Virus record (IMG/VR): IMGVR_UViG_3300009431_000520
Coordinates: 1 to 48,293 of that record
Length of the DNA: 48,293 nt
From: a virus
Strand: one strand, 5' to 3'
Of this stretch, positions 2,707 to 47,448 are shown piece after piece; position 1 is the stretch's first letter, and each line of letters opens with the position of its first letter. The notes under the pieces are model-generated. The model saw only the letters and a list, made by a program, of their open reading frames with translations, made no database searches and was not told where the DNA came from. A program made the translations under genes and the position numbers.

Positions 2707-3112
2707 ATTTCCCTCCTTTGAATACTTTAATTAAACCAGTTCTTTTTCTTCTTGCATCACCGACAAAATATTCGCAATCCTTATTCTGATTAAAAAACTT
2801 ATTCCTTAATATTTTATATACTTCCCACCTGTAATCTGGGTGGATCCAAGTATTCGCAACATAAGCTATGTTACCTGTTTCCACATCTTCTGTATAAGCC
2901 GAGAAAGTTTCTTTACATATAATCCTGCCAAACTGCTCATAATTAATACGCCAACTTTCGACATAGCCCACAATGCGTTTATTATCAGTAACCCAGAGGA
3001 TACGACCCTTTCCGATGAGTCGTTTAAAATACTTCTCTGCTTCTTCTCTTGGTAATTTGTATTCGTGCCAGTTTTCTTTTTCAAGGTATATGTTTATTAA
3101 TTGGTCTATCAT
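2633..3112 (-). CDS. GNAT-like acyltransferase-fold virion-region protein (159 aa)
   Basis: The protein has the alternating pattern of a GNAT fold: a strand with ILWVTDNKRIVGYVE near residues 38-52, then YVANTWIHPDYRWEVYKIL, which resembles GNAT motif A with its pyrophosphate loop degraded. Acyltransferase-like proteins occur next to tail or internal virion genes in T7-like and other podoviruses, where catalysis is doubtful. The start overlaps the upstream fibre stop as ATGA. The last 25 residues are read out of frame with the next gene and may be spurious extension. Role unknown. Confidence 0.55.
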   Translation of the reverse strand: MIDQLINIYLEKENWHEYKLPREEAEKYFKRLIGKGRILWVTDNKRIVGYVESWRINYEQFGRIICKETFSAYTEDVETGNIAYVANTWIHPDYRWEVYKILRNKFFNQNKDCEYFVGDARRKRTGLIKVFKGGKYGTGKDYNRTNTNNTTATTSYCYA

Positions 3113-4140: not shown

Positions 4141-4471
4141 ACTTAAACTCCTTTACTTTGTTTTTAATTTTCCTTCTTTTATACTTCTTCATATGCTTTT
4201 CCTTTTTCTTCTTTTCCCAATGCTCAAGCCCATCAACCTCTCTCTGCCAGCCAGCTATGACAGACTTCATTATGGTCTTATGGTCTTTGTCTTTCATGCC
4301 TGCCTTGCAGGGCTTACAGGTTACTACTCTCATCTTAGAACCGTCATCTAATAAGAACTGCACTTGGTCGTAATCAGGAGTGGTTACCTTCTTGACTTCA
4401 GTCCCCACAACCTTTTCTATTATCATATTCTTACCACACATGATACAATGTCCAAACCTATCTACTATCAT
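4124..4471 (-). CDS. Zinc-ribbon-like basic protein (115 aa)
   Basis: Two CxxC pairs (CIMC near residues 9-12 and CKPC near 52-55) suggest one zinc site. The C-terminal third is a dense Lys/Arg run that is probably helical and nucleic-acid binding. It overlaps both neighbours by a few bases within the tail operon. I do not recognise the family. Presence among tail genes may make it a tail assembly or small virion protein, but that is only positional. Confidence 0.6.
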   Translation of the reverse strand: MIVDRFGHCIMCGKNMIIEKVVGTEVKKVTTPDYDQVQFLLDDGSKMRVVTCKPCKAGMKDKDHKTIMKSVIAGWQREVDGLEHWEKKKKEKHMKKYKRRKIKNKVKEFKYGDNH

Positions 4472-4725
4472 GTTAGTTCCACCACCTTTTGATTTCCGGA
4501 AATGTTTATAATATTGTAAATCTTTCCATCATCTGTATCTCGCCAATATGCAAAGGTATTCCTTTGTATCGTAGGTTCTGTAGCCTGTTCAAATATTCTT
4601 GGGAACTTATCAAGATACTGCACTATATTAAATACATCTCTATCAAGCGTATTAATATAATCCTTGAGTTTCTCAATATCCTCAAATCCAATAAAATTGC
4701 TTAACTTTTTAGGTTTATCAGCCAT
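4468..4725 (-). CDS. Small tail-region protein (85 aa)
   Basis: An 85-residue protein with a helical N-terminal half and a C-terminal beta segment (FAYWRDTDDGKIYNI) like the short tip or adaptor proteins often found after tail hub genes. Its stop region overlaps the downstream zinc-ribbon gene by 4 nt and its start abuts the stop of the tail hub gene. No family recognised. Confidence 0.65.
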   Translation of the reverse strand: MADKPKKLSNFIGFEDIEKLKDYINTLDRDVFNIVQYLDKFPRIFEQATEPTIQRNTFAYWRDTDDGKIYNIINISGNQKVVELT

Positions 4726-6272
4726 TATATCGTCTCCAGATGTGGCATAGTTCCAAATCCGTCTACTTGAAATGTCTCAGACGCAGTATTGTTACGAAAC
4801 CTAAATCTTACCACTCTGCCCCTGCCAAGAGCAGTATCTATTCTTTTTACGTTTCCACCACTTCTTGCATAAGTAGCTGTGTCATAAACCCCTGTTCCGT
4901 AAACATCAGCACTCGTTGATAAATCAATGGAAAGGGTCTGCTGTGGATCGCTGTCAAAATCATAAGAATACGAAAATGAAAGAGTATTAGAAGCTATCTG
5001 GTAATAAAGGGTAAGGTGTGCTACGCCCTTCTTATCAACCAAATCATCATAATGCTTCCAATTTGTCCAGTAATAAGCATCTATGGCTGTCTTGACATTA
5101 ATAGGGTAGTCGTCAGCACCTGTGTCTGACCTATAGACAAACCCTGCATAATCCCCCCAGTAAGGTCTTTCCTCAACACCACTTACATAGAAAGTAGCCA
5201 TACTCGCAGGATCTAACCCATCATATAAAGTCCAAGCATTGTTGAAGTAATCCCACACCACCACTTTGTCGTTCTCAGAACTACCGCTTGCAGTTAAGGC
5301 ACACCAGTATCTATTCTTGCTCTTCTGCACAAGGCTTACTGCATTAGAGTATTTAAGGATATTCATTGTATCCAGTGTAGCGGTAATCTTGTCGCTTATT
5401 TTAAATGAGTTCATACCATCGTAGAAATAGAACCCATCTTGTGCTAAGAATACAAGCCCATTATCAACCTCTTGTATTGAGAAGGGTGCGGCACAACCTA
5501 CTGCTGAGTTACTTTTACCACCACCGGGAAGGATAAAGGGAACATCAACATCACCAGTAAAGAACACATTATAAATAGAACGGTCTTTAAAAACTACCAA
5601 CCTATCGGATAAAACCTGTAACCCCTGTATCTGTTGTCCATCATCTCTGGATACATCTATAAAATCAGTAGCTGTCCAAGTCTTAGAGTCTTTAAGATTA
5701 GACCAGTATATCCTCGATGTGTGCGTGCCGCCTGAGAGAGTGATATTGCCTAAGAATAAATAGTTATTAAACAACTCCACATACTTGGCTTTCGTAAGGT
5801 TTGTGGGTATCTCTGCCGCTGCAAGACCTGTGTTGTTAGCCCCATCCCACAGGAAGGGAACATCATTACCATTGGTCATATAAAGTCTGTTCTCAAATAC
5901 CGCCCCATCTATGTGGTAGCCAGTGGTAATAGAGATGCTTGAGGTGATATTATCCCAAGTTCCGTCTAAATCATCCATCCTATAACACTTATCCCCTGCT
6001 ACAGTTACAGCCTTTCTCGTAAGAGCACCGCCTGCAATATACTCAAACCAGAATAAACCATTCATATCTGCCCCAGAATTCAAGGTAGCCGTATTCAAAG
6101 CAGTATATCCGTTCCTTTTTATAATAGACCCGAACTTATCAAAGTCTATATTCTGCAGGTCGCTTGATTCGTTGTTCTGCAGACCTAAAGCCCCAGCGGT
6201 GGTATTTAACCCACCATTGAGGATTTTATCAGAAATTGGAACTGAAGCTGTTGTGTAAGGTATCCCAGCCAT
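4725..6272 (-). CDS. Tail hub/needle-platform protein, P22 gp10-like (515 aa)
   Basis: A 515-residue beta-rich protein with repeated blades such as FENRLYMTNGNDVPFLWDG, FNNYLFLGN, LSDRLVVFKDRSIYNVFF and LVFLAQDGFYFYDG. These resemble the beta-propeller of podovirus tail hub proteins (P22 gp10 and relatives). The N-terminus has the common LNTTAGALGLQNNESSDLQN segment of this group. It directly follows the gp4/tail-tube-like gene. Assignment rests on this repeat pattern and gene order. Confidence 0.75.
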   Translation of the reverse strand: MAGIPYTTASVPISDKILNGGLNTTAGALGLQNNESSDLQNIDFDKFGSIIKRNGYTALNTATLNSGADMNGLFWFEYIAGGALTRKAVTVAGDKCYRMDDLDGTWDNITSSISITTGYHIDGAVFENRLYMTNGNDVPFLWDGANNTGLAAAEIPTNLTKAKYVELFNNYLFLGNITLSGGTHTSRIYWSNLKDSKTWTATDFIDVSRDDGQQIQGLQVLSDRLVVFKDRSIYNVFFTGDVDVPFILPGGGKSNSAVGCAAPFSIQEVDNGLVFLAQDGFYFYDGMNSFKISDKITATLDTMNILKYSNAVSLVQKSKNRYWCALTASGSSENDKVVVWDYFNNAWTLYDGLDPASMATFYVSGVEERPYWGDYAGFVYRSDTGADDYPINVKTAIDAYYWTNWKHYDDLVDKKGVAHLTLYYQIASNTLSFSYSYDFDSDPQQTLSIDLSTSADVYGTGVYDTATYARSGGNVKRIDTALGRGRVVRFRFRNNTASETFQVDGFGTMPHLETI

Positions 6273-7505
6273 TTATATCACCCGTGGTCCATAAAAACTT
6301 CCCACTTGCCTATAACTCAAATTAGAGTGAACCAGAAAGTCCCTGCTTCCCTGCCCGGCTCTTTTCAACTTTGGAAACCAGTCAATCTTATCTGCATTGG
6401 TTCTTTTTAAAGACCTCATCTCATCTTGCCACATAGTGTAGAACGTCTCTGTGCCCTGCTTAATCTCTGTCTCTCCCTTTATCTTGGAAACAGCCAGAAG
6501 AATTATAGCCTCATCAAAATCCTGCCCTAATTCATGGACATCTTCATCGGCTACCAATCTATAGGGGTCTTTATAATACTGAATGTTCATATCGAAGGCA
6601 GAGCTTGGTAGAGGATATAATTGTATCTTCCGATAAATTATACCTGCTGTAGTGTCTCCGACTGGTAGGACTGCCACAATAGTATTAGCAGTATTACAAT
6701 CAACAGTAATCCTCCCAGTAGTAGAAGCATTTTTTACCACTCTTTCTACTGTTTGGAAGCTCTTTGAGCCATTCACAACAGTAGTTCCATTAGAAGAATT
6801 GGTTGTTATAACCTCGAAATCAGGATAACCAGCTACAGTCCCAAACACAGTAACCTTAATAGAAGTATCCCCTGAAGCAGAGGAAGCTATCCTCATAACA
6901 GAGGCTTCTTTAGGTTGCTCCATTACCATATCCTCCCCCCACATACGATAGTGGGTAGGTATGTCCTCATCTGTGTTATAAGCATTGGTTTGATAGAAAT
7001 CTTGGTCTGTGATGTAGTTCATTTTATAAGGGTAACCCCACTCCTCGTGCCAAAGGAACATCCTATGCCCTGCTTGCACTGGGAGGTTGTATTCTTCCTG
7101 TCCTAATATCTTATAAGTTCCATCAGTAACAGAGCTACCTGAGTAGCTGTGATCCAATGTTATAGCTGTTTCCCCTGTTACTTTGCGGATTATAAAATAC
7201 TGCCCATCACCTTCGAGCTTTATTCTCCTCCCTACCCTGACACCTTCCGTAAGAAAGGTAGCACCAGTTATTGTTATCGTGCTTGTGTTCACAGTAAAAG
7301 CTCCAGCCCCAGAACCTGCTTCATAATACTTCTTAGTCCTGAAGTGTGTTTTACGCCTCATTATCCTCCAAGGGGCTTCACGGCTTATCCTGAACAGAGA
7401 GGTATTTATTAGGTTCTTTGTAGGAGTATCATACTGAGTGCCAGATTGGTCTTTTGTAGCACGACGCTTAACTTCGTCGGCTAAATCCTTGAATGTCATT
7501 GACAT
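6273..7505 (-). CDS. Head-tail adaptor / tail tubular protein (410 aa)
   Basis: The N-terminal helical region (FKDLADEVKRRATKD, then NTSLFRISREAPWRIMR) and the C-terminal helical region (YYKDPYRLVADEDVHELGQD) match podovirus tail-tube/adaptor proteins, which contact the portal ring. A beta-rich insert of about 80 residues around 195-285 looks like an Ig-type or beta-sandwich domain that decorates such rings. It ends immediately before the tail hub gene. The gene upstream is an intruding HNH nuclease, so the operon has been interrupted here. Confidence 0.7.
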   Translation of the reverse strand: MSMTFKDLADEVKRRATKDQSGTQYDTPTKNLINTSLFRISREAPWRIMRRKTHFRTKKYYEAGSGAGAFTVNTSTITITGATFLTEGVRVGRRIKLEGDGQYFIIRKVTGETAITLDHSYSGSSVTDGTYKILGQEEYNLPVQAGHRMFLWHEEWGYPYKMNYITDQDFYQTNAYNTDEDIPTHYRMWGEDMVMEQPKEASVMRIASSASGDTSIKVTVFGTVAGYPDFEVITTNSSNGTTVVNGSKSFQTVERVVKNASTTGRITVDCNTANTIVAVLPVGDTTAGIIYRKIQLYPLPSSAFDMNIQYYKDPYRLVADEDVHELGQDFDEAIILLAVSKIKGETEIKQGTETFYTMWQDEMRSLKRTNADKIDWFPKLKRAGQGSRDFLVHSNLSYRQVGSFYGPRVI

Positions 7506-7507
7506 GA

Positions 7508-7861
7508 CTATCTCCCTTCTTGTATCTCTTCCATATGTATCTTCATATGTTTACTTCTATCAATTAATTCGAGATTTTCTATCCTATTGTCTAACTTATT
7601 GCCATTAATATGATGTATAATCTCTGTTTGAGTAAGTTCTCTACCAAGATACTCCTCAAATATTAACCTATGTTCTGCTTCAACATCACTCTTTACAGTA
7701 AATATATATCTATAACCATCTTTAATATAAACTCCGCCTCTCCAATTCGGGCACTTCTCTCTTTTTCTACCAACCATCCATTTACCATAACCTCTTTCAA
7801 TGGCTCTTTTCCTTATGGCTTCTCTATGTTCTGGCGTTCTAATATAACTGCCTGTTCCCAT
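7508..7861 (-). CDS. HNH homing endonuclease (117 aa)
   Basis: Contains EHRLIFEEYLGRELTQTEIIHHINGNKLDNRIENLELI, shown here only as its two parts: the AEHR strand and the HHINGNKxDNRxENL core of free-standing HNH homing nucleases (histidines at about residues 83-84, Asn at 93-97). A GGAG site lies 8 nt before the ATG. It interrupts the tail module, and 105 nt upstream of it carry no gene. Such genes are selfish and usually dispensable. Certain as an HNH protein; target unknown. Confidence 0.9.
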   Translation of the reverse strand: MGTGSYIRTPEHREAIRKRAIERGYGKWMVGRKREKCPNWRGGVYIKDGYRYIFTVKSDVEAEHRLIFEEYLGRELTQTEIIHHINGNKLDNRIENLELIDRSKHMKIHMEEIQEGR

Positions 7862-7966
7862 ATTACCATCTCCATTTCATACGAAAACCTGTATATTTTG
7901 TCTTGCTAATTGGGGTTTCGAATTCCCCTATTTCTAAATGAGAGCCTACGAAGTGCAAGAACTTTC

Positions 7967-8200
7967 CTACCCGGTAGACCCTGTGAACTTTTTTAACAAC
8001 TCCGATAATCTAAACAGGGCTTTCTGTATTCTCTCTGTCCAAGCCTCTATTAAATCCACCAAACCATCTTGTGATGGCTGGAATATGTTAATAAGACCTG
8101 CTGCTACCTTACCTATTGCCCCGATAACACCTACCACCATATTCACATTCTTAACAAACCACGCAGCTATTGAAGTCAGAAAAGCTACAATCTTCATCAT
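7967..8200 (-). CDS. Small membrane protein, possible holin (77 aa)
   Basis: The first 40 residues form one or two hydrophobic segments (IVAFLTSIAAWFVK and VVGVIGAIGKVAAGLINIF) followed by an amphipathic helix with charged residues. It is one of four tiny genes in a row (8736 down to 7967), overlapping the upstream 58-residue gene as ATGA. A hydrophobic N-terminus with a charged tail fits a holin or other lysis membrane protein, but no endolysin is found beside it, so the function stays open. Confidence 0.5.
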   Translation of the reverse strand: MMKIVAFLTSIAAWFVKNVNMVVGVIGAIGKVAAGLINIFQPSQDGLVDLIEAWTERIQKALFRLSELLKKFTGSTG

Positions 8201-8373
8201 ATACCTCCTTTATCAACTTCGCCTTCTACGAATTCAATTAGTGCCAAACTTTCACTTAAATGCTTTTTAGCTTTTGTAAAGTGTATAATTGTTTTTTGCA
8301 TCTCATCTTCTGATTTTTTTAAATCAGCTATTACCTTTTTAAGAATATGCAAATCAATATTTACTGTTGCCAT
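8197..8373 (-). CDS. Short coiled-coil protein (58 aa)
   Basis: Minus-strand frame from the ATG at 8373-8371 to TGA at 8199-8197. The sequence is a single amphipathic helix (HILKKVIADLKKSEDEMQKT and on) with a heptad-like pattern. It overlaps the 77-residue membrane protein genes on both sides. Tight coupling to membrane proteins suggests a shared process. No family recognised. Confidence 0.6.
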   Translation of the reverse strand: MATVNIDLHILKKVIADLKKSEDEMQKTIIHFTKAKKHLSESLALIEFVEGEVDKGGI

Positions 8374-8587
8374 TTTTCTTTATGAAATCCTTTATATCAT
8401 CAAAGCGATTATCAACATGGTTTTGGAAATCATCTATTCTCTTACTTACTGATTTCTGAGCTGAATGACACTCGTTCTTAGTTACTTTATTGTTAAGTCT
8501 ACCATTCAACATTCTACCCATAAAAAGACATATGCCTACCAATGTTAAAACCCCTATTGGTTGAACGTATGGTATTAATTCTTCCAT
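8354..8587 (-). CDS. Single-pass membrane coiled-coil protein (77 aa)
   Basis: One clear transmembrane helix at about residues 11-28 (GVLTLVGICLFMGRML) followed by a charged helical stretch (QKSVSKRIDDFQNHVDNRFDDI). This layout recalls small spanin-like or holin-accessory proteins. The start overlaps the upstream 49-residue gene stop as TAATG. Function is uncertain. Confidence 0.55.
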   Translation of the reverse strand: MEELIPYVQPIGVLTLVGICLFMGRMLNGRLNNKVTKNECHSAQKSVSKRIDDFQNHVDNRFDDIKDFIKKNGNSKY

Positions 8588-14833: not shown

Positions 14834-15796
14834 TTAGGTAATGCCTGTTAGCTTGAAGTTTCTTCGCCTGTTGTTTGTTACTAAATTACCCCTCCAAAGT
14901 ATATACGCTACTTTCACAGTCTGATTGGTAGGCGTAATAAATGGAGTTGTTACAAGATCCGTCGCACTATCTACTGCAAGATAGTCATACGCTGTGTTCA
15001 GCCCAAACAGAAGCCCAGTCTGAATATAGTTTCCATAAGTTACTGGTTTACCCTTGAAAGTAAGGTTTGTGAACCCAGCATTGGCACTCATAGAATTGCT
15101 AATTCTTTCCAGCGGAAGCCTTGTTTGTTCAAACTTCTGATAAATGGTCTTGGTTGTTAAGAAATAATTCGGATTATCCACCATCTCTTCAGAAGATACA
15201 GCATAGTATCCTGTAGTCATATCCGTCAGCCCCTGCGTTGCAAATGCACCAGAAGCTGTTACAGTTGCCTGCCAGAAGGTATATGTCCCACCAGCAAGTG
15301 AACCCAGTGTTCCTGTGTTGATAAGGGTTTCAAGGTCATAAAGACGATTAGCTGCACCCACAGGTTTCGACAAAGCTTGGCTTAGTCGGTCTCTGATAGC
15401 TCTTTCCGAAAGAGAAATCTTAGTTCCTGTAAGATCTAAGATTTTGTGCATATCGCCAGAATTCGCCCTTTCCTCATCACGTGTGATTACGATAGGTTCA
15501 TAGGCATTCTGCCATCTGTATTCGACGATAGTTGTATCATGCCCCTGAGTGTTGTTTAGCACATCAGCTCCGAGGTAAAAACCACCATCATCCTGCTTTT
15601 CTCTGATTAAAGTCTCTACAATACTTGTGCCACCATTTATCGTTCTCTTATTTTCCGAGAGAATTCTCAGCACTGCAGCCCCATTGTAGACGTTATCTAC
15701 GAGTCTTTTCTGATAGTCTGCCAATGAGGTTGTCAATACTGTGTCATCTATCGTAGTCGGCACAGCATATGGAGATGTCATTGTTACTGAAGCCAT
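14834..15796 (-). CDS. Major capsid protein (320 aa)
   Basis: Features of an HK97-fold capsid protein: a long N-terminal helix region, LSERAIRDRLSQALSKP as the likely spine helix, then a C-terminal beta domain (FTNLTFKGKPVTYGNYIQTG, FKLTGI). It directly follows the scaffold-like gene and precedes a run of small head proteins. At 320 residues it is typical for podoviruses. No protease gene is seen nearby. Confidence 0.8.
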   Translation of the reverse strand: MASVTMTSPYAVPTTIDDTVLTTSLADYQKRLVDNVYNGAAVLRILSENKRTINGGTSIVETLIREKQDDGGFYLGADVLNNTQGHDTTIVEYRWQNAYEPIVITRDEERANSGDMHKILDLTGTKISLSERAIRDRLSQALSKPVGAANRLYDLETLINTGTLGSLAGGTYTFWQATVTASGAFATQGLTDMTTGYYAVSSEEMVDNPNYFLTTKTIYQKFEQTRLPLERISNSMSANAGFTNLTFKGKPVTYGNYIQTGLLFGLNTAYDYLAVDSATDLVTTPFITPTNQTVKVAYILWRGNLVTNNRRRNFKLTGIT

Positions 15797-21407: not shown

Positions 21408-21961
21408 GACACCAGTATATGCAGCCCGACGCTGAAAATAATTGAATCAATAACCTTTGCACGCCCCATCGGCACTCCGAGAGTCTTTAGGAGGAAGAAC
21501 GTAAACATAACATAGGGGACTGCAAAGCAACTGGTGAAATATCCTATGTAGATGCTTACCCCGAGGTAGAACGACAGAGTTCCTATCATACCACAGAACG
21601 AATCTAATCTCTTTCCGTAAGCAGAAGTCTCATTTTGTATCCTCGCCAGATGTCCGTCTGCTGAGTCTAAGATACCCTTGAAGTAGAATATAAACAGTCC
21701 CAAGAGAGGTCTTGAAGTGATTAAGAGAACCCCACCCACTACCCCCAATATCCCATACAACCAAGTAACATAGTTAGCTCTTATCTTACCCTGTAGGAAG
21801 TAAACGACCAGTGCAGCCCCTTCCATGTAGAGACAAAGTTTAAACCATGAATAAGGACTCTTATCGTATCCGATATGGAAACGATACTGCTCTCGTCTTA
21901 TCTCATCTAAAAGATATCTTTGCTGGGATTTTATGTCCCTTCTCTTTTCTTCCGTAAACAT
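21404..21961 (-). CDS. CDP-alcohol phosphatidyltransferase-like membrane protein (185 aa)
   Basis: Residues 99-124 carry the family signature D-x2-D-G-x2-A-R-x8-G-x3-D-x3, but the final aspartate, the presumed catalytic base, is glycine (GGT at residue 124). Hydrophobic segments (about 43-56, 66-82, 86-97, 122-140, 147-160) fit the six-helix membrane fold, somewhat shortened. The family joins a CDP-activated alcohol to a second alcohol, usually a lipid. The missing base makes activity doubtful, or it may bind rather than convert. The gene overlaps the terminase gene by 59 nt and houses the portal promoter in its tail, an odd place for lipid metabolism. Confidence 0.8.
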   Translation of the reverse strand: MFTEEKRRDIKSQQRYLLDEIRREQYRFHIGYDKSPYSWFKLCLYMEGAALVVYFLQGKIRANYVTWLYGILGVVGGVLLITSRPLLGLFIFYFKGILDSADGHLARIQNETSAYGKRLDSFCGMIGTLSFYLGVSIYIGYFTSCFAVPYVMFTFFLLKTLGVPMGRAKVIDSIIFSVGLHILVS

Positions 21962-23465
21962 ACCTCTTCTTGTCGGGCTTGTTCATTTTTATGGCTTGTT
22001 TACGCCACCACTCGAATTCGTCGTCTTTCTCTTCGACGATCTTCTTCTGTGTCTTAGGATACTGAAGAAGCTGGACAAGACCTTGCAGGGCATCAGGTAA
22101 GTCATCGTGTGCACCTGACGGAAAACGGAGAAGCTGGTGTTCTAATTCACCCATGTTTCGTCGGTGGTAAATAGAGTGTTGTGCATATCTGGGTTCTAAC
22201 CTCGTCAGAACACGCTGGACTTTGTCAGTATCCCAGAGGAGTGGTTTAAAGAGCAACCACCTATTTCTCCGTCGCATAGCTTGTTGCATAAGAAACTGCA
22301 TTACCTTCTCGAGCTTCGCCTTCTCCCACCCTATTGGAACAGAAGTGCCAGTAAGAGCTCTCATACGTTCTTCCATCGAGAACAGTATCTCCTCCATCTC
22401 ATGGGGTCTCAAACCTTTCTTGCAGATGTAACTCTCTATCAATAGGTCTGACTGTGGAGTAAGAAAAGCAGGTAATACGACGGAGAAATCACTTTCTCTC
22501 TTTTCTTCCCACGCTAAATCACAAGATATAGCAGCCTTGCACTCCCTGAGGGGATACTTGGCTACTATCCTTCCCTCGTCGAAGAGTATAGCTTCTAAGT
22601 TCTCTATTGTCCAGTAACGGAAGTCCTCTCGGTGGAACTTCCTCATAGCCCCAGCGACGGGGTCATTCTGGTATTCTTTGGCAAATACGGAGGGTTTCTC
22701 TCTCGAGAGGCGTTTAAGGTCCTCAACAGACCACTTATCCTCCCATAAGGATATCTCTTTCCCGTCAATCTCGTTCAAAGCTCGATAAAAGCCCTTCTTA
22801 TACTCGGGGTAGTGTTCTTTTGATACAAGTTTAGCCATTAAAGAGTCATCATGTAAGATAGTCCCTATGAAGATATACTGACACTCCTTTTTATCTCCGG
22901 CGGGTATCAGGGCATCGTCGAACTCTGACTGAAGGTTCTCTCGTCGTTCTCTTGAACGCACCATGACGTCATCTTCGAGGTCATCACCAATAATCAAATC
23001 AGGTCTATATGGACCAAACTTCTCTCCTCTCACCGACCCTATCTGTTCATGCCCTTTACAGAGAACTCTTGTCTTAAACCCGTCGGGGTGGACAAAGATT
23101 GTGTCCCCCTCTGAGTCCTTCTCGAACTTAATACCATAGTGGTCTATAAGCATCTGATTATTACGAAACTCGTCTTTAATAGTCCCTAAAGCCCCGGCTG
23201 CCTTTGCATAAGTATTCATTGTAATAACGATGAAGTGCTTCTTCTTATTAGCAATACAGTGGGCTGGATAGAGAAAAGTCAGTAGAGTAGACTTAGAGGA
23301 CTCACGGGGAGAGGCTATAGAAAGCCAGCGTGTCTCCAGGCACTTATCTAAGATTTCAAGATGAAAATCAGGTGTTGGGAGGGAAAAGTGCTTAGGGCAG
23401 TAAAACTTACCCCAATGAAAAGGGTGGTAAGAGAGTTCTTCTAATAGGTTCTTGTAGTTATCCAA
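21903..23465 (-). CDS. terL: Terminase large subunit (520 aa)
   Basis: ATPase: a Walker A variant SPRESSKST at residues 52-60 and Walker B PDLIIGDDLEDD at about 155-166. Nuclease: the RNase H-like start ISCDLAWEEK near residue 310 and the late HDDLPDALQGL acidic motif. Size and order match phage packaging motors. It starts 8 nt inside the end of an HNH gene and 480 nt from the small subunit stop. It would pump DNA through the portal and cut it. Confidence 0.92.
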   Translation of the reverse strand: MDNYKNLLEELSYHPFHWGKFYCPKHFSLPTPDFHLEILDKCLETRWLSIASPRESSKSTLLTFLYPAHCIANKKKHFIVITMNTYAKAAGALGTIKDEFRNNQMLIDHYGIKFEKDSEGDTIFVHPDGFKTRVLCKGHEQIGSVRGEKFGPYRPDLIIGDDLEDDVMVRSRERRENLQSEFDDALIPAGDKKECQYIFIGTILHDDSLMAKLVSKEHYPEYKKGFYRALNEIDGKEISLWEDKWSVEDLKRLSREKPSVFAKEYQNDPVAGAMRKFHREDFRYWTIENLEAILFDEGRIVAKYPLRECKAAISCDLAWEEKRESDFSVVLPAFLTPQSDLLIESYICKKGLRPHEMEEILFSMEERMRALTGTSVPIGWEKAKLEKVMQFLMQQAMRRRNRWLLFKPLLWDTDKVQRVLTRLEPRYAQHSIYHRRNMGELEHQLLRFPSGAHDDLPDALQGLVQLLQYPKTQKKIVEEKDDEFEWWRKQAIKMNKPDKKRYVYGRKEKGHKIPAKISFR

Positions 23466-40112: not shown

Positions 40113-40847
40113 ATGATACTTGTAAGTGCGGGCGATAGTGTCGGTGCTCGTTTAGTAAAGGAGGCAGGTTTCGATGGGATATGGGTTAGTGGTTTTGAAG
40201 CTTCTGCTCGGCTTGGGTTGCCTGATAATGGGAGCATTACTCTTTTACAAATGTTGTCTATCACAGCACCGATTGTTGGTGCTACAGACCTTCCTGTCTA
40301 CGTGGATGTTGATGTTGGGTATAGGGATTTTGCTACTACTGTTAGAAAGTTTGAAGAAATAGGTGCAGCAGGTGTGTGTATAGAAGATGTAGAACCTGCC
40401 TATAAACAGAATTCTTTATGGGGTGATAAAGTTCCGTTGATGGATATGAAAAAGTTTGCTGCCCAGCTAATGGTAAATAGAAAGATAAAAATAATAGCAA
40501 GAACAGAAGCATTAGTAAGAGGATACGGAGAGGAAGAAACCAGAAAAAGACTTGGCTGTTACCACAAGGCAGGTGCTGATATATTATTTCCTCACTCAAG
40601 AACAGTTCCTCTGTGGATGAAAGATGATAGATATTATGCCATAGCCCCTACCAAATTCCCTTACTATACCAATACCAGATTAGAATATTTGGGATATGAA
40701 ATGGTTATCTGGGCAAACCAGACGGAGAGAACAAAGATAAAAGCAGTAAGAGAAATGCTTGCTTCTCTTAAAAAACATGACCGTATGTTAGAAGCAGAGA
40801 AAGACCTTTGTGTTACTTTAGATGATATGAAAGGACTGACAGAGTGA
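40113..40847 (+). CDS. PEP mutase-like protein of the isocitrate lyase superfamily (244 aa)
   Basis: ATG at 40113 behind GGGAGG. WVSGFEASARLGLPDN and YVDVDVGYRD carry the Asp residues that bind magnesium. The PEP mutase loop, usually EDKxxxxxNS, here reads EDVEPAYKQNS: Lys is replaced by Val and there is one extra residue, though the Lys and Asn of KxNS remain. The two following genes are a phosphonopyruvate decarboxylase pair, so C-P bond formation from PEP is the best guess; a related lyase or hydrolase is possible. Confidence 0.75.
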   Translation: MILVSAGDSVGARLVKEAGFDGIWVSGFEASARLGLPDNGSITLLQMLSITAPIVGATDLPVYVDVDVGYRDFATTVRKFEEIGAAGVCIEDVEPAYKQNSLWGDKVPLMDMKKFAAQLMVNRKIKIIARTEALVRGYGEEETRKRLGCYHKAGADILFPHSRTVPLWMKDDRYYAIAPTKFPYYTNTRLEYLGYEMVIWANQTERTKIKAVREMLASLKKHDRMLEAEKDLCVTLDDMKGLTE

Positions 40848-41164
40848 AAGTCGGTATCCCCTACACTGGCTGTAAACACCAGAGTGAAGTTCCAGTAACA
40901 AGGGAAGATGAGGCTATTGCCTTTGCTGTGGGAGTGGCACTCGGTGGCGGTGAGTGCCAAGTTTATATGGACAACAGTGGGTTAGGGCAGTGCGTAAACA
41001 TAATATCCACCCTACTACGCCCCTACCAGATCACAATACCTTTGGAGGTGTCTGTAAGGCATGAACCTGAACACCATAAATACATGGGGAAGATTACAAA
41101 ACCTTTAATGGAGTTATTAGGATATGCAGAAAGCAATCCAAGAAATAATGTCAAAAGTAAATAA
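40844..41164 (+). CDS. Phosphonopyruvate decarboxylase, alpha/N-terminal subunit (106 aa)
   Basis: GTG start coupled to the upstream TGA. REDEAIAFAVGVALGGGECQVYMDNSGLGQCVN is the N-terminal pyrimidine-binding domain of TPP decarboxylases, with the conserved Glu. It is only 106 residues, shorter than the usual half. Sulfopyruvate decarboxylases are also split in two, so that reaction is the alternative, but PEP mutase next door favours phosphonopyruvate. Confidence 0.75.
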   Translation: MKVGIPYTGCKHQSEVPVTREDEAIAFAVGVALGGGECQVYMDNSGLGQCVNIISTLLRPYQITIPLEVSVRHEPEHHKYMGKITKPLMELLGYAESNPRNNVKSK

Positions 41165-41594
41165 CGAGTGTGTAATCACTTCCTGTGGTTACATCTCAAG
41201 GGAGGTATATAATATTAAAGATAGGGATAGGAATTTTTATAATCTTGGTGCTATGGGTAGCTCTCTTGCTATTGGGCTGGGATTAGCCTACCAAAGACCC
41301 GACCTTAAAATAATAATTATTCAAGGAGATGGGGCTACATTAATGAGTTTAGGCACAATGGTATTACAACATCATTTAGAGTTACCTAATATAAGACTTT
41401 ATATTTTAAATAATCATTCCCATGCCTCAACTGGTGGACAACCTACTTGCTTCCAAGCCTTAGGAGATTTTGAGCCAATGAAAAATCTTGAAATAATTAA
41501 CTGTGGAAAAGAATCCAATGCTCCACGCATACCATTAACCTGTAAACAGATAAAGGAACGCTTTATTGAAAGTATTCGCCTCAAAAAGAAGTAA
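41124..41594 (+). CDS. Phosphonopyruvate decarboxylase, beta/C-terminal subunit (156 aa)
   Basis: NLGAMGSSLAIGLGLAYQRP and IIIQGDGATLMSLGTMVLQ with later LNNHSHASTGGQP form the pyrophosphate-binding half of a TPP enzyme (GDG...NN). It overlaps the alpha gene by 41 nt in another frame, so the pair is a split version of a normally single 380-residue enzyme. Product would be phosphonoacetaldehyde. Confidence 0.8.
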   Translation: MQKAIQEIMSKVNNECVITSCGYISREVYNIKDRDRNFYNLGAMGSSLAIGLGLAYQRPDLKIIIIQGDGATLMSLGTMVLQHHLELPNIRLYILNNHSHASTGGQPTCFQALGDFEPMKNLEIINCGKESNAPRIPLTCKQIKERFIESIRLKKK

Positions 41595-42042
41595 GAAAAT
41601 AGCAGACAAACTGGTCATAGCAGTGGGGGGTGGTTCTACATTAGACTTGGCGAAGATATATGCCAAGAGGCATGATAAAGTATGTCTCGCCATCCCCACT
41701 ACCGGCTCTGGTGCTTCTGAAACCTCCCACGCTGTGGTGTGGGGGAAGAAGAAGATTAACATAAAGACAAAGAAACCTATCAGTATCTCTCCTCCGATAA
41801 AAATTAAGTTAGACAAGACTACCAGAAGAAATACTGTCTACGATATATTAGGACACATAGTAGACTACCTAAATGTCTGCTCTGATAATGAGCTCATTGA
41901 AGTAGGCAGATACGCAGGACAGTTAATAGAAAAACACCCAACGAACCTTACTCATCCAGCTTCTTACCCCATGACCCTAAAGGGAGTGCCACATGGTGAA
42001 GCGGTGGGTAGGGTTCTTTGTAAGTGTATTAAGGAGTTATGA
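41566..42042 (+). CDS. Miniature iron-type alcohol dehydrogenase, PhpC-like (158 aa)
   Basis: TTG start behind AAGGA. VGGGSTLDLAK (NAD), PTTGSGASE, YDILGHIVD (metal Asp and His) and GVPHGEAVG (metal His) all match iron-containing alcohol dehydrogenases, but the protein is 158 residues instead of about 380. The region between the motifs is cut down and both ends are missing. Next to decarboxylase genes it would reduce phosphonoacetaldehyde to 2-hydroxyethylphosphonate. Activity in so small a form is unproven. Confidence 0.7.
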   Translation: MKVFASKRSKKIADKLVIAVGGGSTLDLAKIYAKRHDKVCLAIPTTGSGASETSHAVVWGKKKINIKTKKPISISPPIKIKLDKTTRRNTVYDILGHIVDYLNVCSDNELIEVGRYAGQLIEKHPTNLTHPASYPMTLKGVPHGEAVGRVLCKCIKEL

Positions 42043-43115
42043 GGGTATTCGTATTTGGTATAAGAGGTTTCCCTTTCATTGGCGGTGGTGCTGAAAGACA
42101 CTCAGAGGAATTGTATCCTCGCTTAGTTAAGAGGGGATATGATGTTACTGTCCTTGCCAGAACAGTTCATCTTGAGGGCTGGAAAGGTATTAAATTTAAA
42201 AAGATAAGGTATCATAAAAACCCTCGCTTAGAAACTATGACCCACTCCATCCTCTGCTCTCTGTATTGCATTAAGAAGAAACCAGATGTAGTCCATATCC
42301 ATAATATGGGGGCTTGTTTATTAGTCCCCCTGCTTGTATTGATGAATTTAAGAGTAGTCCTTACCTTGCATAGTTTTAATTATCTGCACAAGAAGTGGAA
42401 TTTCTTTGCAAGATTTATTTTAAACACCTGTGAGAATTTAGGTATAAACTTCTCCCACCGAATAATAACAGTATCAAAAGATATGGTGGAATTCCTACGC
42501 AATAAATACCAGAGGACACTGCCCCTTAACTATATCCCTAATGCTATTGATAAAGCAGAACATATCCCGGCAGGGTTTACCCTGAAGAAGTATAAGCTGA
42601 GGGAGAAGAAGTATGCTTTAGCTGTGGGCAGATTAACACCAGAGAAAGGGTTTGATTGCTTGGTAAAAGCATATAACTTAGCTAAGCCAGATTTTAAATT
42701 AGTTATAATAGGTGATGGTGATAGTGAATATGCAAAGGAATTAAGGCGTAATAAATCTGAGGACATTATCTTCACAGGGTATTTAAATGGGAAAGATTTA
42801 GCTGAGCTCTACTCCAATGCTGGTCTAATGGTGCTGAGTTCCTTTAACGAAGGATCGCCATTAGTATTCCTTGAAGCCCTAAACTATGGCATACCAATTA
42901 TAGCCAGTAATATCAGGGCATATAAATATATCCCACTCCCAAGCTACAGATATTATATTGTTGATGACATCGATGAACTGGCACTTAAAATGAAAGAGTT
43001 GTTTAATGAAGACTTCACTCCCGAAGAAAAGCATTACCATAAAAACCTCTTAGAGAACGAATATAACTGGGATAAGGTTACTAAGCAAACCCAAAATATA
43101 TATGACTCAGTCTAA
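42039..43115 (+). CDS. GT4 glycosyltransferase (358 aa)
   Basis: GGGAERHSEELYPRLVKRGY at the N-terminus, a Rossmann ALAVGRLTPEKGFDCLVKA, and the EX7E motif in NEGSPLVFLEALNYG mark a full-length GT-B retaining enzyme. It would add a sugar to a growing glycan. Coupled to the dehydrogenase by ATGA. Confidence 0.9.
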   Translation: MRVFVFGIRGFPFIGGGAERHSEELYPRLVKRGYDVTVLARTVHLEGWKGIKFKKIRYHKNPRLETMTHSILCSLYCIKKKPDVVHIHNMGACLLVPLLVLMNLRVVLTLHSFNYLHKKWNFFARFILNTCENLGINFSHRIITVSKDMVEFLRNKYQRTLPLNYIPNAIDKAEHIPAGFTLKKYKLREKKYALAVGRLTPEKGFDCLVKAYNLAKPDFKLVIIGDGDSEYAKELRRNKSEDIIFTGYLNGKDLAELYSNAGLMVLSSFNEGSPLVFLEALNYGIPIIASNIRAYKYIPLPSYRYYIVDDIDELALKMKELFNEDFTPEEKHYHKNLLENEYNWDKVTKQTQNIYDSV

Positions 43116-43689
43116 AGTATCTGTCATAATTCCAGCGTATAACAAAGCCGACTACACTGTAGAGGCAGTGAAGAGTGTGCTTAATCAAACCTACCCTAAT
43201 ATAGAGTGCATTGTAGTTGACGATGGGTCTACCGATGATACTTATGATAAACTCTTTCCGTATATAGATACCGATATAAAATATATATTCCAACCAAACA
43301 AAGGTGTTTCTGTTGCTCGCAATAAAGGAATAGTCAGATCAGAGGGTGAATATATTGCCTTCCTTGACTGTGATGATAAGTATTTAAAGCATAAAATATT
43401 AATATCCCTCAACGAAATGAAAAGACAAGAGGTAGATATGATATATAACAGTGCTGTATTAATAAACCAAGAGGGAAAACAGCAAGGCTGGTATCGCCCT
43501 AAAAGACATAGCCTACTCTTTCGTAATTCTATTATGAACTCTGTGGTAATTAAAAAAGAAGTCTTTGATAAGGTAGGGTTATTCGACGAGGAATTATTCA
43601 TCTGTGCTGACTGGGATATGTGGTTAAGGATAGAGGAACACTTTAAAATAGGATACATCGATTGTCCACTTACTTATTACAGGATATGA
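43102..43689 (+). CDS. GT2 glycosyltransferase (195 aa)
   Basis: VSVIIPAYNKADYTVEAVKS and VDDGSTDDTY for the donor site, FLDCDDKYL as the DxD region, and a final ADWDMWLR. It is a minimal GT-A enzyme without the usual C-terminal extension. Overlaps its neighbours at both ends. Confidence 0.88.
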   Translation: MTQSKVSVIIPAYNKADYTVEAVKSVLNQTYPNIECIVVDDGSTDDTYDKLFPYIDTDIKYIFQPNKGVSVARNKGIVRSEGEYIAFLDCDDKYLKHKILISLNEMKRQEVDMIYNSAVLINQEGKQQGWYRPKRHSLLFRNSIMNSVVIKKEVFDKVGLFDEELFICADWDMWLRIEEHFKIGYIDCPLTYYRI

Positions 43690-44255
43690 ACACAGCTAAA
43701 ACTTTATACCGGGGCAAGGTTGCAAAAGAATACGACAGGAAAAGGTTTGGCACTCCTAAGGGCAAACTATATGGCTGGTGTGAGAAGAACTCTATTAAAA
43801 GGGCTATGCGGTTGTTGCCGAAAGGATCACTGGTCTTGGACATACCCTGTGGAACAGGTAGGGTAACAAAGTATTTGTATGACTTAGGATACAATATGAT
43901 AGGTGCTGATATATCAGAGGATATGTTAGACATAGCAAGGCTAAAAGTAGCCACTCCCTTTGTCCGGAGAGCTATAGAGGCTACATTATACGCAGATAAA
44001 TCATTTGATGCTGCGGTCTGCCTGAGGATGATGGGTTACCTGTCATTTTCAGAGAAGATAGATGTCCTGAAAGAATTAAAAAGGATAGCCAACCACTTAA
44101 TAGTAACCTTTTACTTCAAGTCAAAGTTAGGGTGGTATGAGGTCAGCCCTTATATGCTTGAGAACATATTAGAATATGCCGAGTTGAAAGTTATTAGTAA
44201 ACACCACATCTGCCCCGGCTGGTCAGATGGTATAACCTATTTATTACATGAGTAG
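43686..44255 (+). CDS. Class I SAM methyltransferase (189 aa)
   Basis: ATG at 43686 overlapping the GT2 stop. VLDIPCGTGRVTKYL (motif I), GADISEDML and FDAAVCLRMMGYLSF are SAM-binding and acceptor motifs. Likely methylates a sugar or small molecule of the cassette. Confidence 0.82.
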   Translation: MNTAKTLYRGKVAKEYDRKRFGTPKGKLYGWCEKNSIKRAMRLLPKGSLVLDIPCGTGRVTKYLYDLGYNMIGADISEDMLDIARLKVATPFVRRAIEATLYADKSFDAAVCLRMMGYLSFSEKIDVLKELKRIANHLIVTFYFKSKLGWYEVSPYMLENILEYAELKVISKHHICPGWSDGITYLLHE

Positions 44256-44424
44256 ATATATATACACACACCCAAAAGAAGCCTGTGCTGAGGAGATAAA
44301 AGTAATAATCAAAACCTTTGAACGCAGGAAGTTATCTTATTTCATTCTTTATCTATTAACTTTTAAAGCGGTAATAACTTATTTTTATAGGAGAATCAGA
44401 TTATGGTGCTTCCCCCTGAAGTAA
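44248..44424 (+). CDS. Short hydrophobic-basic protein (58 aa)
   Basis: Frame from ATG 44248 to TAA 44422-44424, overlapping the genes on both sides. N-terminal charged, then FILYLLTFKAVITYFYRRI as a membrane-like helix. It may be the detached N-lobe of the following kinase-like protein. Weak start signal. Confidence 0.45.
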   Translation: MSRYIYTHPKEACAEEIKVIIKTFERRKLSYFILYLLTFKAVITYFYRRIRLWCFPLK

Positions 44425-45020
44425 TGCTTAAAAGGTGTAGCAAGGAGATAGCTCAAAGAGAACATGATGGCTATAAATGGTTTGGAGTAGAAACCAAGAT
44501 AACCGATGAAGGTATAATGATACCTATTTTTAAAGGTAAGACCTTCCCCCAATACAATGGTATAGATGGCAACGAGGAGTGGATAAAGAAACTTGTTAAG
44601 TTCTACATAGCCAAATGGCGTAAGGATAAGTTCTGTGTGCATGGCGATCTGGCTCTATGTAATATAATATTTACAGATGTAAAGGACACCATACACATAA
44701 TAGACTGGGAACACTTTCATTATAATAAAAGAGATTTCTTTGGGTTTGATATAGTTAATATGCTATTTATCCACCTGCAGTATCAATATCGCTGGTGGTC
44801 TTACTGGGGCTGGAACTGGGTTGCTTTTGTAAAACCAAGACATAAGGATTTTATAGCAGAGTGCATAGCTATGTTAGGCAACGAACCCCTTTTAAAAACA
44901 CCCTTTACCAATGCTGCTGTATATATAAAGAAGTTTATGGATAAAGATAAATTTATACTTGGCAAACAATCACCTGAAAGATTAGAGAGCTTGGATTGTC
45001 TATCATATTTAAACAATTAA
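44403..45020 (+). CDS. Phosphotransferase/kinase-like protein (205 aa)
   Basis: KFCVHGDLALCNIIF and TIHIIDWEHF hold the catalytic HGDxxxxN and the metal-binding IDWE of the aminoglycoside phosphotransferase/choline kinase fold. The N-terminal lobe, normally with the ATP-binding Lys, is very short. It may phosphorylate a sugar, choline-like alcohol or lipid-linked glycan. Confidence 0.75.
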   Translation: MVLPPEVMLKRCSKEIAQREHDGYKWFGVETKITDEGIMIPIFKGKTFPQYNGIDGNEEWIKKLVKFYIAKWRKDKFCVHGDLALCNIIFTDVKDTIHIIDWEHFHYNKRDFFGFDIVNMLFIHLQYQYRWWSYWGWNWVAFVKPRHKDFIAECIAMLGNEPLLKTPFTNAAVYIKKFMDKDKFILGKQSPERLESLDCLSYLNN

Positions 45021-45391
45021 GGATAGGGTATCAAGACAAGGTATTCTACATTTACAAGATTAAGACTATGAATGAAAAAGAAGAAGTCTCTAAAGTAGGT
45101 AAGTTCCTCAGGCAGACAGGGCTTGATGAGCTTCCACAGCTATGGAATATCTTAAAAGGGGATTTGGTGTTGGTTGGTCCACGCCCTCTTACCCCACACG
45201 ATCACTACAAATACAGAAGGTTCTCATTACCTATCAAGCCCGGCATAACAGGCTGGTGGCAGATACATGGAAGAAGCCAAAAGAGAATATGGTATTATGA
45301 CTTGGATTATATAAACAAGAAAGCATGGTGGCTTGACCTTTATATTATCTGGAAAACAATACCTTTAGTTCTTCTTAAAAAACATGGATAA
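44996..45391 (+). CDS. Truncated WcaJ/PglC-type sugar-phosphate transferase (131 aa)
   Basis: IIFKQLRIGYQDKVFYIYKIKTM matches the FRQxRxGxxGKxFxIxKFRTM block; TGLDELPQLWNILKGDLVLVGPRP is the catalytic Asp-Glu motif, and PGITGWWQIHGR follows. The membrane re-entrant helix and the first 50 residues of the family are absent; a TTG at 44996 is the best start. It would put the first sugar phosphate on undecaprenyl phosphate if it can reach the membrane. Confidence 0.8.
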   Translation: MSIIFKQLRIGYQDKVFYIYKIKTMNEKEEVSKVGKFLRQTGLDELPQLWNILKGDLVLVGPRPLTPHDHYKYRRFSLPIKPGITGWWQIHGRSQKRIWYYDLDYINKKAWWLDLYIIWKTIPLVLLKKHG

Positions 45392-46067
45392 AATACTATA
45401 CTGTGCAGGAAGCTTCTCAACTTACAACGCAAGGTTTCTCTATACCCAAGAGACTGATGAAGTTATGATGCAGAAAAACAAAGATATTATAGAGCTCTCT
45501 GCACAGTATGGTATTCCTCTACACATTAAAGTCCACCCCTCAGGGGAGAAGGATAACATAGCTCACTTTGAATACCTTGCAAGGAACTACCCCAATGTAA
45601 AAGTAATAGGAGGATATTGGAAGTGGTTTTTATCGGCTGAGAGATTGATACCTAAATACCAGTTAATCATAATAGACATAATCAGAACAGCCATATTACC
45701 TGTAATGGCAAGGAGTGAAATACCATGCATACTTTACACAAAAAGAAAAGACTTGATAAAAAAATGGGGTTTAGAAGATTTAAAAAACATAATTCATATT
45801 TGCTCAACTCGCAGTCAGCTCAACAACCTATTGCAGATGTTTTCATTCGGAGAATTGCATCCCCCTCGCAGGCAAACACTTTTAAACCAGTGGTTCAAGA
45901 AAAGAGAGACAATACAAAGGTGGTATAAGGTAGGGCTTGCAAACATTATACTCCGCAGAAGATTTAGGCAGGAGTGGAAGAACGACGGAAGTTCTTATGT
46001 TACAGCAGAAAAACTACTAAAAAGAATAAGGAGGACAGTTGAACCCCCTCATCATAATCCTAATTAA
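45384..46067 (+). CDS. GT-B-like surface polysaccharide protein (227 aa)
   Basis: HIKVHPSGEKDNIAHFEYLA and the QLIIIDIIRTAILPVMARSEIP segment are typical of the C-lobe of capsule/teichoic-acid type GT-B enzymes, in which a Ser or Asp-Thr segment holds the donor nucleotide. The N-lobe is largely missing. Overlaps the membrane protein gene by 29 nt. Confidence 0.6.
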   Translation: MDKILYCAGSFSTYNARFLYTQETDEVMMQKNKDIIELSAQYGIPLHIKVHPSGEKDNIAHFEYLARNYPNVKVIGGYWKWFLSAERLIPKYQLIIIDIIRTAILPVMARSEIPCILYTKRKDLIKKWGLEDLKNIIHICSTRSQLNNLLQMFSFGELHPPRRQTLLNQWFKKRETIQRWYKVGLANIILRRRFRQEWKNDGSSYVTAEKLLKRIRRTVEPPHHNPN

Positions 46068-47448
46068 TCTCATATTCTACGCAAGGACTCTACGATACGA
46101 TATGGTAATAGATGACTCTTGTCGTAAGTTCCACGTAAAAGACTTGTCTAAAAACTGGTGGGTAATGCTATACCGCAACACCAAATACTCAGGATACGGA
46201 GGACTGCCACTATGGTTTGACCATCTGTTTAATATCATCTTACACACCTCTGTGTGCTTGGCTATCTATTACTGCTTAGGGAAGAGCAATATATCTTTTA
46301 TGGCTGCACTATTATTCAGTATCCACCCTGCCACCAATCAAGTAAGTGTATGGTTGAATGGTAAGAGGTTTGCCGTAACCACCCTTTTGATCCTTTTGAT
46401 GTGGGGATTAAAACCTTATGGACTTATATTCTACATTATAAGCCCTATATGGCACGCTTCAGGGCTACCTGCTATGTTCTTATACCACGAATATAGCTGG
46501 ATATGGCTTCTATTCCTTATCCCTATTATCTTCCACAGGAAGATAATAAATAAGATAGGCTCACGCTGGGAGAGGATACCTAAAGGTGAGATTAAAAGAA
46601 TAAGACCGAGGAAGTTAGTCCTACTTGTAAAAATGATAGGCTATCACTTCCTGCACTGCCTCTTGCCAAGACGTATGAGCTTCTACCATATGTTTATGGA
46701 ACGCTTTGGGTTTAGTGACGAGGATAACAAATACTGGTATTCATTCAATAAAGACTTCTGGATAGGTTTACCTGTGTTAACTTGCATAATTTGGTTAACA
46801 GTAGTTAACTGGGGTAACCCCATAGGCTTTGGGTTATTCTGGTGGTTAATCTTCATTTCTATGTGGTGTCAGTTCCCGGTAGGGTTTACGCAGGCTATAG
46901 CAGGGAGAAATTACTACTTACCCCTTGTAGGGATTGTATATGCCCTTAGTTACACAATACATATCCTCCCATACCACGATTTATATTGGGGAGCTTTTAT
47001 AGCTTTATTCACCTATTACGCCACAAAAATGTGGAACTATATGCCAGCTTACAGGAATTTAGAGGAATTCTACCGATATGCACTGTTTGAGTTCCCCGAC
47101 CAATTCAGAGCAAGGTCTCATGTAATCCAAAAAGAGATTCAGGAGCGTAAAATGTTCTGGGCATTAAGAAATGCTGGGGTAGGTCTCAAGCACAACCCCA
47201 AAGACTGCACACTTAATATTTTAATGGCTCAGTCCTTAATGTCAATAGGTGCTTGGGCAAAGGCTAAGGAATATCTGGGAAAGGCTCATAAAAATATGAT
47301 ACCCGGACAGGAGAGGTATTTTCTCAAACTAATAGACCAGTTCAATGGGATAATAGATGACCAGATAAAAAATCCCAGACCTATTAAACAGATTAAACCC
47401 GATGAAGTTGTGGAAATTAAAGCAAGTCAAATAGCAGGAGTGAATTAA
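46039..47448 (+). CDS. TMTC-like GT-C membrane glycosyltransferase (469 aa)
   Basis: YDMVIDDSC near residue 20 is the acidic motif of GT-C enzymes, and FSIHPATNQVSVWLNGKRF fits the conserved HP...W..GR segment of the TMTC/DUF1736 proteins. About ten transmembrane helices follow; residues 365-450 form TPR-like helical pairs. Such enzymes use polyprenyl-phosphate sugars, often mannose. Last gene of the cassette; its stop overlaps the stop of the minus-strand gene. Confidence 0.75.
   Translation: MNPLIIILINLIFYARTLRYDMVIDDSCRKFHVKDLSKNWWVMLYRNTKYSGYGGLPLWFDHLFNIILHTSVCLAIYYCLGKSNISFMAALLFSIHPATNQVSVWLNGKRFAVTTLLILLMWGLKPYGLIFYIISPIWHASGLPAMFLYHEYSWIWLLFLIPIIFHRKIINKIGSRWERIPKGEIKRIRPRKLVLLVKMIGYHFLHCLLPRRMSFYHMFMERFGFSDEDNKYWYSFNKDFWIGLPVLTCIIWLTVVNWGNPIGFGLFWWLIFISMWCQFPVGFTQAIAGRNYYLPLVGIVYALSYTIHILPYHDLYWGAFIALFTYYATKMWNYMPAYRNLEEFYRYALFEFPDQFRARSHVIQKEIQERKMFWALRNAGVGLKHNPKDCTLNILMAQSLMSIGAWAKAKEYLGKAHKNMIPGQERYFLKLIDQFNGIIDDQIKNPRPIKQIKPDEVVEIKASQIAGVN

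Follow-up and report, generated by a model that had tools for sequence, protein, structure and literature searches.

A compact, probable phosphonate biosynthesis module with a 158-residue putative dehydrogenase in the glycan cassette of an uncultivated phage

The DNA described here (IMG/VR record IMGVR_UViG_3300009431_000520; hereafter the window) is the 48,293-base record of an uncultivated virus, and carries on its plus strand a long cassette of sugar and glycan genes, from ~32 kb to 47 kb. Among these are genes for a phosphoenolpyruvate (PEP) mutase-like protein (PepM), for the alpha and beta subunits of a compact phosphonopyruvate decarboxylase, and for an iron-type alcohol dehydrogenase (Fe-ADH) of 158 residues. 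The reading that we favour, with a probability of about 0.64, is that these genes provide a 2-hydroxyethylphosphonate-type branch within a surface-glycan cassette, and that their products belong to a compact enzyme lineage, found also in a few bacteria, whose dehydrogenase was trimmed stepwise in phages. PEP mutase would convert PEP to phosphonopyruvate, the two-subunit decarboxylase would convert this to phosphonoacetaldehyde, and the Fe-ADH would reduce the latter to 2-hydroxyethylphosphonate. An initial annotation of the cassette had described miniaturised and split enzymes, arising by systematic reduction and not by decay. The sizes it gave, 106 and 156 residues for the decarboxylase, 158 for the dehydrogenase and 131 for a sugar-phosphate transferase, are correct; these open reading frames (ORFs) and a further one of 205 residues are all intact, and most overlap their neighbours (by 4 nucleotides for the PepM and alpha genes and 29 for the beta and dehydrogenase genes). 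As a PEP mutase gene of near-normal size lies just upstream, the short set can be recognised as a phosphonate module.

The 158-residue protein matches PF00465 (Fe-ADH) at 8.3e-08, its 32.4 bits passing the gathering cut-off of 31.3. Its best NCBIfam match is to TIGR03405 (PsrA; 9.4e-09), at 34.5 bits against a curated cut-off of 423.7, a shortfall that is expected for a shortened protein. The catalytic motifs that the initial annotation had seen are indeed retained: GGGS (G21-S24), D93xxxH97, H130 and PHG (H143) are all present, including all four metal ligands, and GGGS, PTT, D93, H130 and H143-G are invariant in each of seven aligned dehydrogenases. An AlphaFold (AF2) model made with seven sequences has a predicted local distance difference test score (pLDDT) of 80.7 and a predicted template modelling score of 0.74, and its leading matches among PDB structures are relatives of Fe-ADH or glycerol dehydrogenase. 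VIA-align places 155 of the 158 residues on residues 54-285 of 1o2d (Z 13.0, root mean square deviation (rmsd) 3.4), with both domains reduced; VIA-align and Foldseek speak to fold, not function. Structure prediction, which had been proposed as a check, thus returns an Fe-ADH fold for this protein. Operon context (PepM and decarboxylase), GGGS, the metal ligands and the predicted fold all liken it to HEPD / phosphonoacetaldehyde reductase (cd08182; PhpC, FomC, PsrA), from which it differs in size (158 residues versus about 330-393) and in having lost a large part of the N-terminal nucleotide domain, together with a central helix segment and the C-terminal helices. Phosphonoacetaldehyde reduction is the activity that its position after the PepM and decarboxylase genes suggests. 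No match to the 158-residue dehydrogenase was obtained in named phages by tblastn, and a fold search of BFVD gave none at E <= 0.001.

Relatives of the module, given here as numbered loci, came to light when viral contigs were searched with profiles of PEP mutase, the dehydrogenase and the decarboxylase. It was the PEP mutase and the alignments that found them; the dehydrogenase and the decarboxylase beta subunit, used as single proteins, gave no matches in such contigs. L019/L020 has the gene order of the window and the same 29-nucleotide overlap (PepM 257, alpha 121, beta about 165 and dehydrogenase 159 residues). The order PepM-alpha-beta-FeADH is also found in L021 (271, 102, 158 and 270 residues), and close variants of it in L024 (alpha 119; dehydrogenase 292, counted from an internal ATG), in L027 and L028 (contigs of 138 and 145 kb; alpha 114/121, beta 167/169, dehydrogenase 207/207) and in L088 (alpha 107, beta 160, dehydrogenase 229). 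L018 has adjacent genes for PepM (256 residues) and the dehydrogenase (258 residues), and its 40-kb contig gave no decarboxylase match. The compact decarboxylase is also present in L089 and L140, which lack this dehydrogenase; in L140 it is accompanied by a PhnW-like aminotransferase (judged by eye). The dehydrogenases of phage modules are thus 158, 159, 207, 207, 229, 258, 270 and 292 residues long, whereas cellular ones have 330-393 residues as a rule (about 370 being normal), with 292 in the bacterial locus L029. The view that 158 residues is far below cellular size is borne out, and the short forms that the initial annotation suggested looking for in related phages exist, as dehydrogenases of 159-292 residues and alpha subunits of 102-121.

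In the favoured reading the phage dehydrogenase would have been shortened from about 290 residues to 270, 258, 229, 207 and finally 158, with the catalytic core kept; the parts lost are the N-terminal arm that precedes the nucleotide loop, a helical stretch following the first metal ligands, and the helices at the C terminus. Upstream of GGGS there are 20 residues in the window and L019 proteins, 46-54 in the rest of the compact clade and 76-106 or more in most cells; the span from GGGS to the HG motif is 121-122, 137-152 and 160-186 residues, respectively. After the HG motif, 14 residues remain in the window and L019, 20 in L027/L028, 32 in L088, 59-90 in L029, L024, L021 and L018, and 84-118 in most cells. 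L027 and L028 have lost C-terminal residues and kept the N-terminal arm; the window and L019 have lost both. The dehydrogenase tree, in which the phages and L029 form a single clade (support 100/100), agrees with this order, since the window and L019 (100/99) adjoin L027 and L028 (94/91). L018 stands beside L088 (88/96). The tree leans, without rejecting a single origin, towards two or more lines of trimming, one with window/L019/L027/L028 and another with L018/L088.

Short length alone might suggest fragments of broken genes, produced by decay or by an assembly or sequencing artefact. Such an explanation is hardly credible. The window and L019 dehydrogenases share 62% amino-acid identity, and their genes differ at 110 third, 55 first and 43 second codon positions; the proportion of synonymous differences (pS) is 0.905, which is saturated, against a nonsynonymous proportion (pN) of 0.31, with changes at 39 of 49 fourfold sites. 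When the same substitutions were placed at random (500 trials), identity fell to 28% (at most 34%) with an average of 7.5 stop codons, compared with the 62% and none observed. Saturation at synonymous sites, together with identity so far above the shuffled expectation, indicates that the 158-residue form has been maintained as a protein. Alpha, beta and PepM show a similar pattern between the window and L019, and the nonsynonymous to synonymous rate ratio (dN/dS) of the L027-L028 pair is 0.43. Furthermore, the protein is of equal length (158/159) in two divergent phages, the gene is identical in two separate assemblies, L019 and L020, sizes are graded across several phages, and no frameshifted remainder is present in the window. 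For the phosphonate module, these comparisons of gene sequences support retained reduction under purifying selection and not gene decay, as had been proposed: intact forms of the same or intermediate size occur in divergent phages, and full-length relatives alongside a frameshifted copy in the window, which would have spoken for decay, were not found.

The decarboxylase is encoded by two genes, as first described. The beta subunit retains GDG...NN, the thiamine diphosphate (ThDP) motif, and its best PDB match is RhiF (9iz3_B, 1.8e-33); the model of the alpha subunit (pLDDT 86) aligns over 106 of 106 residues with RhiE (9iz4_A; Z 12.9, rmsd 1.8). A heteromeric decarboxylase is therefore indicated by adjacent subunit genes, a ThDP motif in beta and a PYR fold in the predicted model of alpha. 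Heteromeric phosphonopyruvate and sulfopyruvate decarboxylases are already known in RhiEF and ComDE (PMC12141560), which likewise have separate alpha (PYR) and beta (PP) subunits with GDG...NN. The window genes differ from RhiEF (PDB 9IZ3/9IZ4) in being phage-borne and overlapping, and in encoding 106 + 156 residues versus 181 + 186. In phage relatives the subunits have 102-121 and about 156-169 residues, and the total in phage-type modules is 260-288 residues versus 365-390 for the fused cellular form. It does not follow that the phage itself made the break, and this idea was rejected: separate subunits are also found in Planctomycetota (beta about 185-191 residues), Elusimicrobia and Patescibacteria. 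Given these bacterial subunits and the trees described below, the two-subunit state is probably an old state of the decarboxylase, in agreement with RhiEF and ComDE. A side observation concerns L140, a 101-kb phage contig in which the beta gene (7167-8387) is fused in frame behind an apparent HNH endonuclease at the alpha/beta junction.

Cellular loci were retrieved with a profile made from the phage sequences and are not a census. In the bacterial and archaeal loci of the pathway the decarboxylase is as a rule fused (365-390 residues), with exceptions. L029, a metagenome-assembled genome of Elusimicrobia, has decarboxylase subunits of 130/158 residues with its 292-residue dehydrogenase, and a similar second copy within the same genome. 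In two genomes of the L032 phylum (Falkowbacteria, Patescibacteria), alpha subunits of 129-150 and beta subunits of 154-171 residues are encoded beside an aldehyde-dehydrogenase-like gene, and the separate beta is frequent in genomes of the L031 phylum (Planctomycetota). As judged from these sequences, compactness of the decarboxylase is not confined to phages. The tree of concatenated decarboxylases unites the phage and Elusimicrobia sequences in one clade (100/99), and in the beta-subunit tree L029 and the L032-phylum genomes fall inside the phage clade. Short sizes might thus have been inherited mostly from bacterial donors with compact enzymes and not have been made in phages, but this seems somewhat unlikely. 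Apart from frames cut by contig ends, no dehydrogenase below 290 residues was found in cellular loci, a compact decarboxylase is present in just one of 294 genomes from the phylum of L029, and a tree test did not decide the direction of transfer (approximately unbiased (AU) test, p 0.187 for phages only). TerL had no match in the same 294 genomes, a result that is not readable as a host test.

The opposite trend to that of the phages is seen in Gastranaerophilales (L034, L038, L045 and further genomes), where phosphonopyruvate decarboxylase/Fe-ADH fusions reach about 720-790 residues. The cellular dehydrogenases of the phosphonate clusters L042, L055, L059, L068 and L072 are without the DxxxH metal motif, which most phage proteins retain. 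Nor is reduction a rule for phages: Vibrio phage Va2 (MW073017), which also has phosphonate biosynthesis genes, keeps a full-length PEP mutase (434 residues) and a full-length, fused decarboxylase (a TPP-binding protein of 366 residues), their genes not being adjacent.

Whether 158 residues suffice is the main doubt about reductase activity, and several observations weigh against the favoured reading. Most of the nucleotide-binding domain upstream of GGGS is missing from the 158-residue protein. In the L019 protein (DCLGQ) the second metal ligand, H97 in the window, is replaced by Q, which means that conservation of the metal site is not strict; metal-free members of the iron-type ADH family are known or have been proposed (PMC5125639). 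One reduction event and several are indistinguishable (AU p 0.257). Among the scanned cassette proteins of the window there is no match to a PF01467-type cytidylyltransferase or to a CDP-alcohol phosphotransferase. The protein might be a conserved pseudoenzyme, kept for another role such as that of a decarboxylase subunit or scaffold; the lost nucleotide-binding part and C-terminal helices, the ligand missing in L019, the long branch (1.8) leading to the window-L019 pair and the overlap with the beta gene would all fit. We nevertheless regard this as unlikely, since a pure scaffold would not need the motifs that are invariant in the seven members, and the gene retains the pathway order. Quite improbable is a further alternative, that a full-length host enzyme or a phage partner provides in trans what has been lost, the short proteins being functional only in complexes of this kind. 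In its favour, two proteins make up the decarboxylase itself (RhiEF, PMC12141560), but no separate Fe-ADH N- or C-terminal segment is encoded elsewhere in the window, and the gene downstream of the dehydrogenase is not constant among phages (GT4, cytidylyltransferase-like or PepM). Only tentatively, at a little short of even odds, do we regard the 158-residue protein as a functional phosphonoacetaldehyde reductase; it would then be the smallest enzyme with the Fe-type ADH fold in nature, and phages would have arrived at it by removing both arms step by step from around a constant metal/nucleotide core.

The first step of the pathway would be catalysed by PepM. The window protein matches PF13714 at 1.2e-36 over profile positions 10-238 of 240 (126.9 bits, passing the cut-off of 31.5) and is 54-60% identical to its phage relatives in L018, L019, L021 and L088. 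Its match to the equivalog TIGR02320 (9.6e-40) lies at 136 bits, below the cut-off of 319.6, and in place of the PEP mutase motif EDKxxxxxNS it has EDVEPAYKQNS, in which the first Lys and the spacing differ; the later K and the NS are retained across all phage relatives. It is thus PEP-mutase-like by family and context, and not a proven PEP mutase.

In the window, 2-hydroxyethylphosphonate would then probably be cytidylyl-activated and attached to a glycan or lipid. Nucleotidyl activation occurs in bacterial phosphonate pathways (PMC6697681), and in keeping with this L018, L019 and L088 have a cytidylyltransferase-like gene and/or a CDP-alcohol phosphotransferase, which supports the activation and transfer steps in those loci. 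We infer the enzymatic activity, the product and its attachment, as well as genome economy as the driver of trimming.

The remaining short enzymes of the cassette present a mixed picture. The 131-residue transferase matches PF02397 at 3.9e-41 and retains DELPQ. The match begins at profile position 34 (34-178 of 179), which indicates that the N-terminal membrane segment is missing, as the initial annotation held, and the frame opens at 44978, leaving no space for an N-terminal membrane helix. It aligns with residues 44-186 of the 205-residue PglC chain (8e37), sharing the catalytic core of PglC/WbaP-type enzymes and differing from them in the absent helix and a shortened loop; similar short transferases of 154 and 163 residues are found in the phage loci L092 and L099. 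For the 205-residue kinase-like protein, loss of most of the N-lobe is plausible but unproven: its sole support is a sub-threshold Choline_kinase match (6.3e-06, profile positions 146-212 of 300), and neither a PDB sequence match nor a phage relative was found. The glycosyltransferase (GT) claim, that GT-B proteins lack most of their N-lobes, could not be confirmed. The GT4 protein holds both lobes (Glyco_transf_4 at residues 16-172, Glycos_transf_1 at 188-330), and the 227-residue protein has no Pfam match and no phage relative by tblastn; its alignment as half of a CDP-glycerol phosphotransferase is weak and unconvincing. 'Systematic' is likewise an overstatement. PepM, GT4, RmlD-like, epimerase, Polysacc_synt_2 and radical SAM proteins cover their Pfam profiles almost fully, and with so many cassette proteins near normal length the reduction is selective. 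The features of the window are collected in Table 1; no tRNAs were found in it.

Table 1. Coordinates of the phosphonate module and other features in the window
Feature	Position	Strand	Remarks
PEP mutase (PepM), 248 residues	40101..40847	+	first gene of phosphonate module; PF13714, TIGR02320
Phosphonopyruvate decarboxylase alpha (ThDP PYR domain), compact, 106 residues	40844..41164	+	TIGR03297 2.9e-14
Phosphonopyruvate decarboxylase beta (ThDP-binding PP domain), compact, 156 residues	41124..41594	+	TIGR03846 2.3e-34
Iron-type alcohol dehydrogenase, 158 residues, putative phosphonoacetaldehyde reductase (2-hydroxyethylphosphonate-forming)	41566..42042	+	PF00465, TIGR03405
GT4 glycosyltransferase, 358 residues	42039..43115	+	Glyco_transf_4 + Glycos_transf_1
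Kinase-like protein, 205 residues	44403..45020	+	sub-threshold Choline_kinase match
Sugar-phosphate transferase (Bac_transf/PglC-type), 131 residues	44996..45391	+	PF02397
227-residue protein, family unassigned	45384..46067	+	perhaps the truncated GT-B of the initial annotation; unconfirmed
Large terminase	21906-23465	minus	
Major head protein	14837-15796	minus	

Some further observations were made in these loci. At 44248-44424 of the window, a 58-residue ORF with a hydrophobic stretch overlaps the stop of a methyltransferase gene, ends beyond the point where the kinase gene starts, and could be a membrane part encoded on its own. A 469-residue membrane protein is encoded at 46039-47448, and its distant homologues stand beside the phosphonate module in L018 and L019. 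L019 encodes a likewise strongly reduced DegT-type aminotransferase of 214 residues (7357-8001; family model 360 positions), in which the regions that usually hold the pyridoxal phosphate lysine are kept, and a 749-residue radical-SAM protein (3559-5808) with an apparent intein/HNH-like insertion in its CxxxCxxC motif, absent from the L018 and L088 homologues. In L089, NeuB (231 residues) and a CTP_transf_3 protein (a cytidylyltransferase, 186 residues), both encoded at 2660-3897, are shorter than usual, and in L018 a 136-residue nitroreductase-family protein (7588-7998) lies directly upstream of PEP mutase.

In the open-access papers searched, no mention of phage-encoded phosphonate biosynthesis was found, and literature searches on phage enzymes of reduced size gave nothing on this case. 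A protective role of surface phosphonates against phages and grazers has been proposed (PMC8931226); speculatively, a phage could employ them to keep out rivals. Phages carry a phosphonate biosynthesis module beside glycan genes, and may in this way add C-P bonded groups to the surfaces of their hosts. The module also offers a natural size series of one enzyme, running from 292 down to 158 residues in an unchanged pathway context, and with it a direct means of asking how far a metal-dependent dehydrogenase can shrink and which of its parts it can do without.

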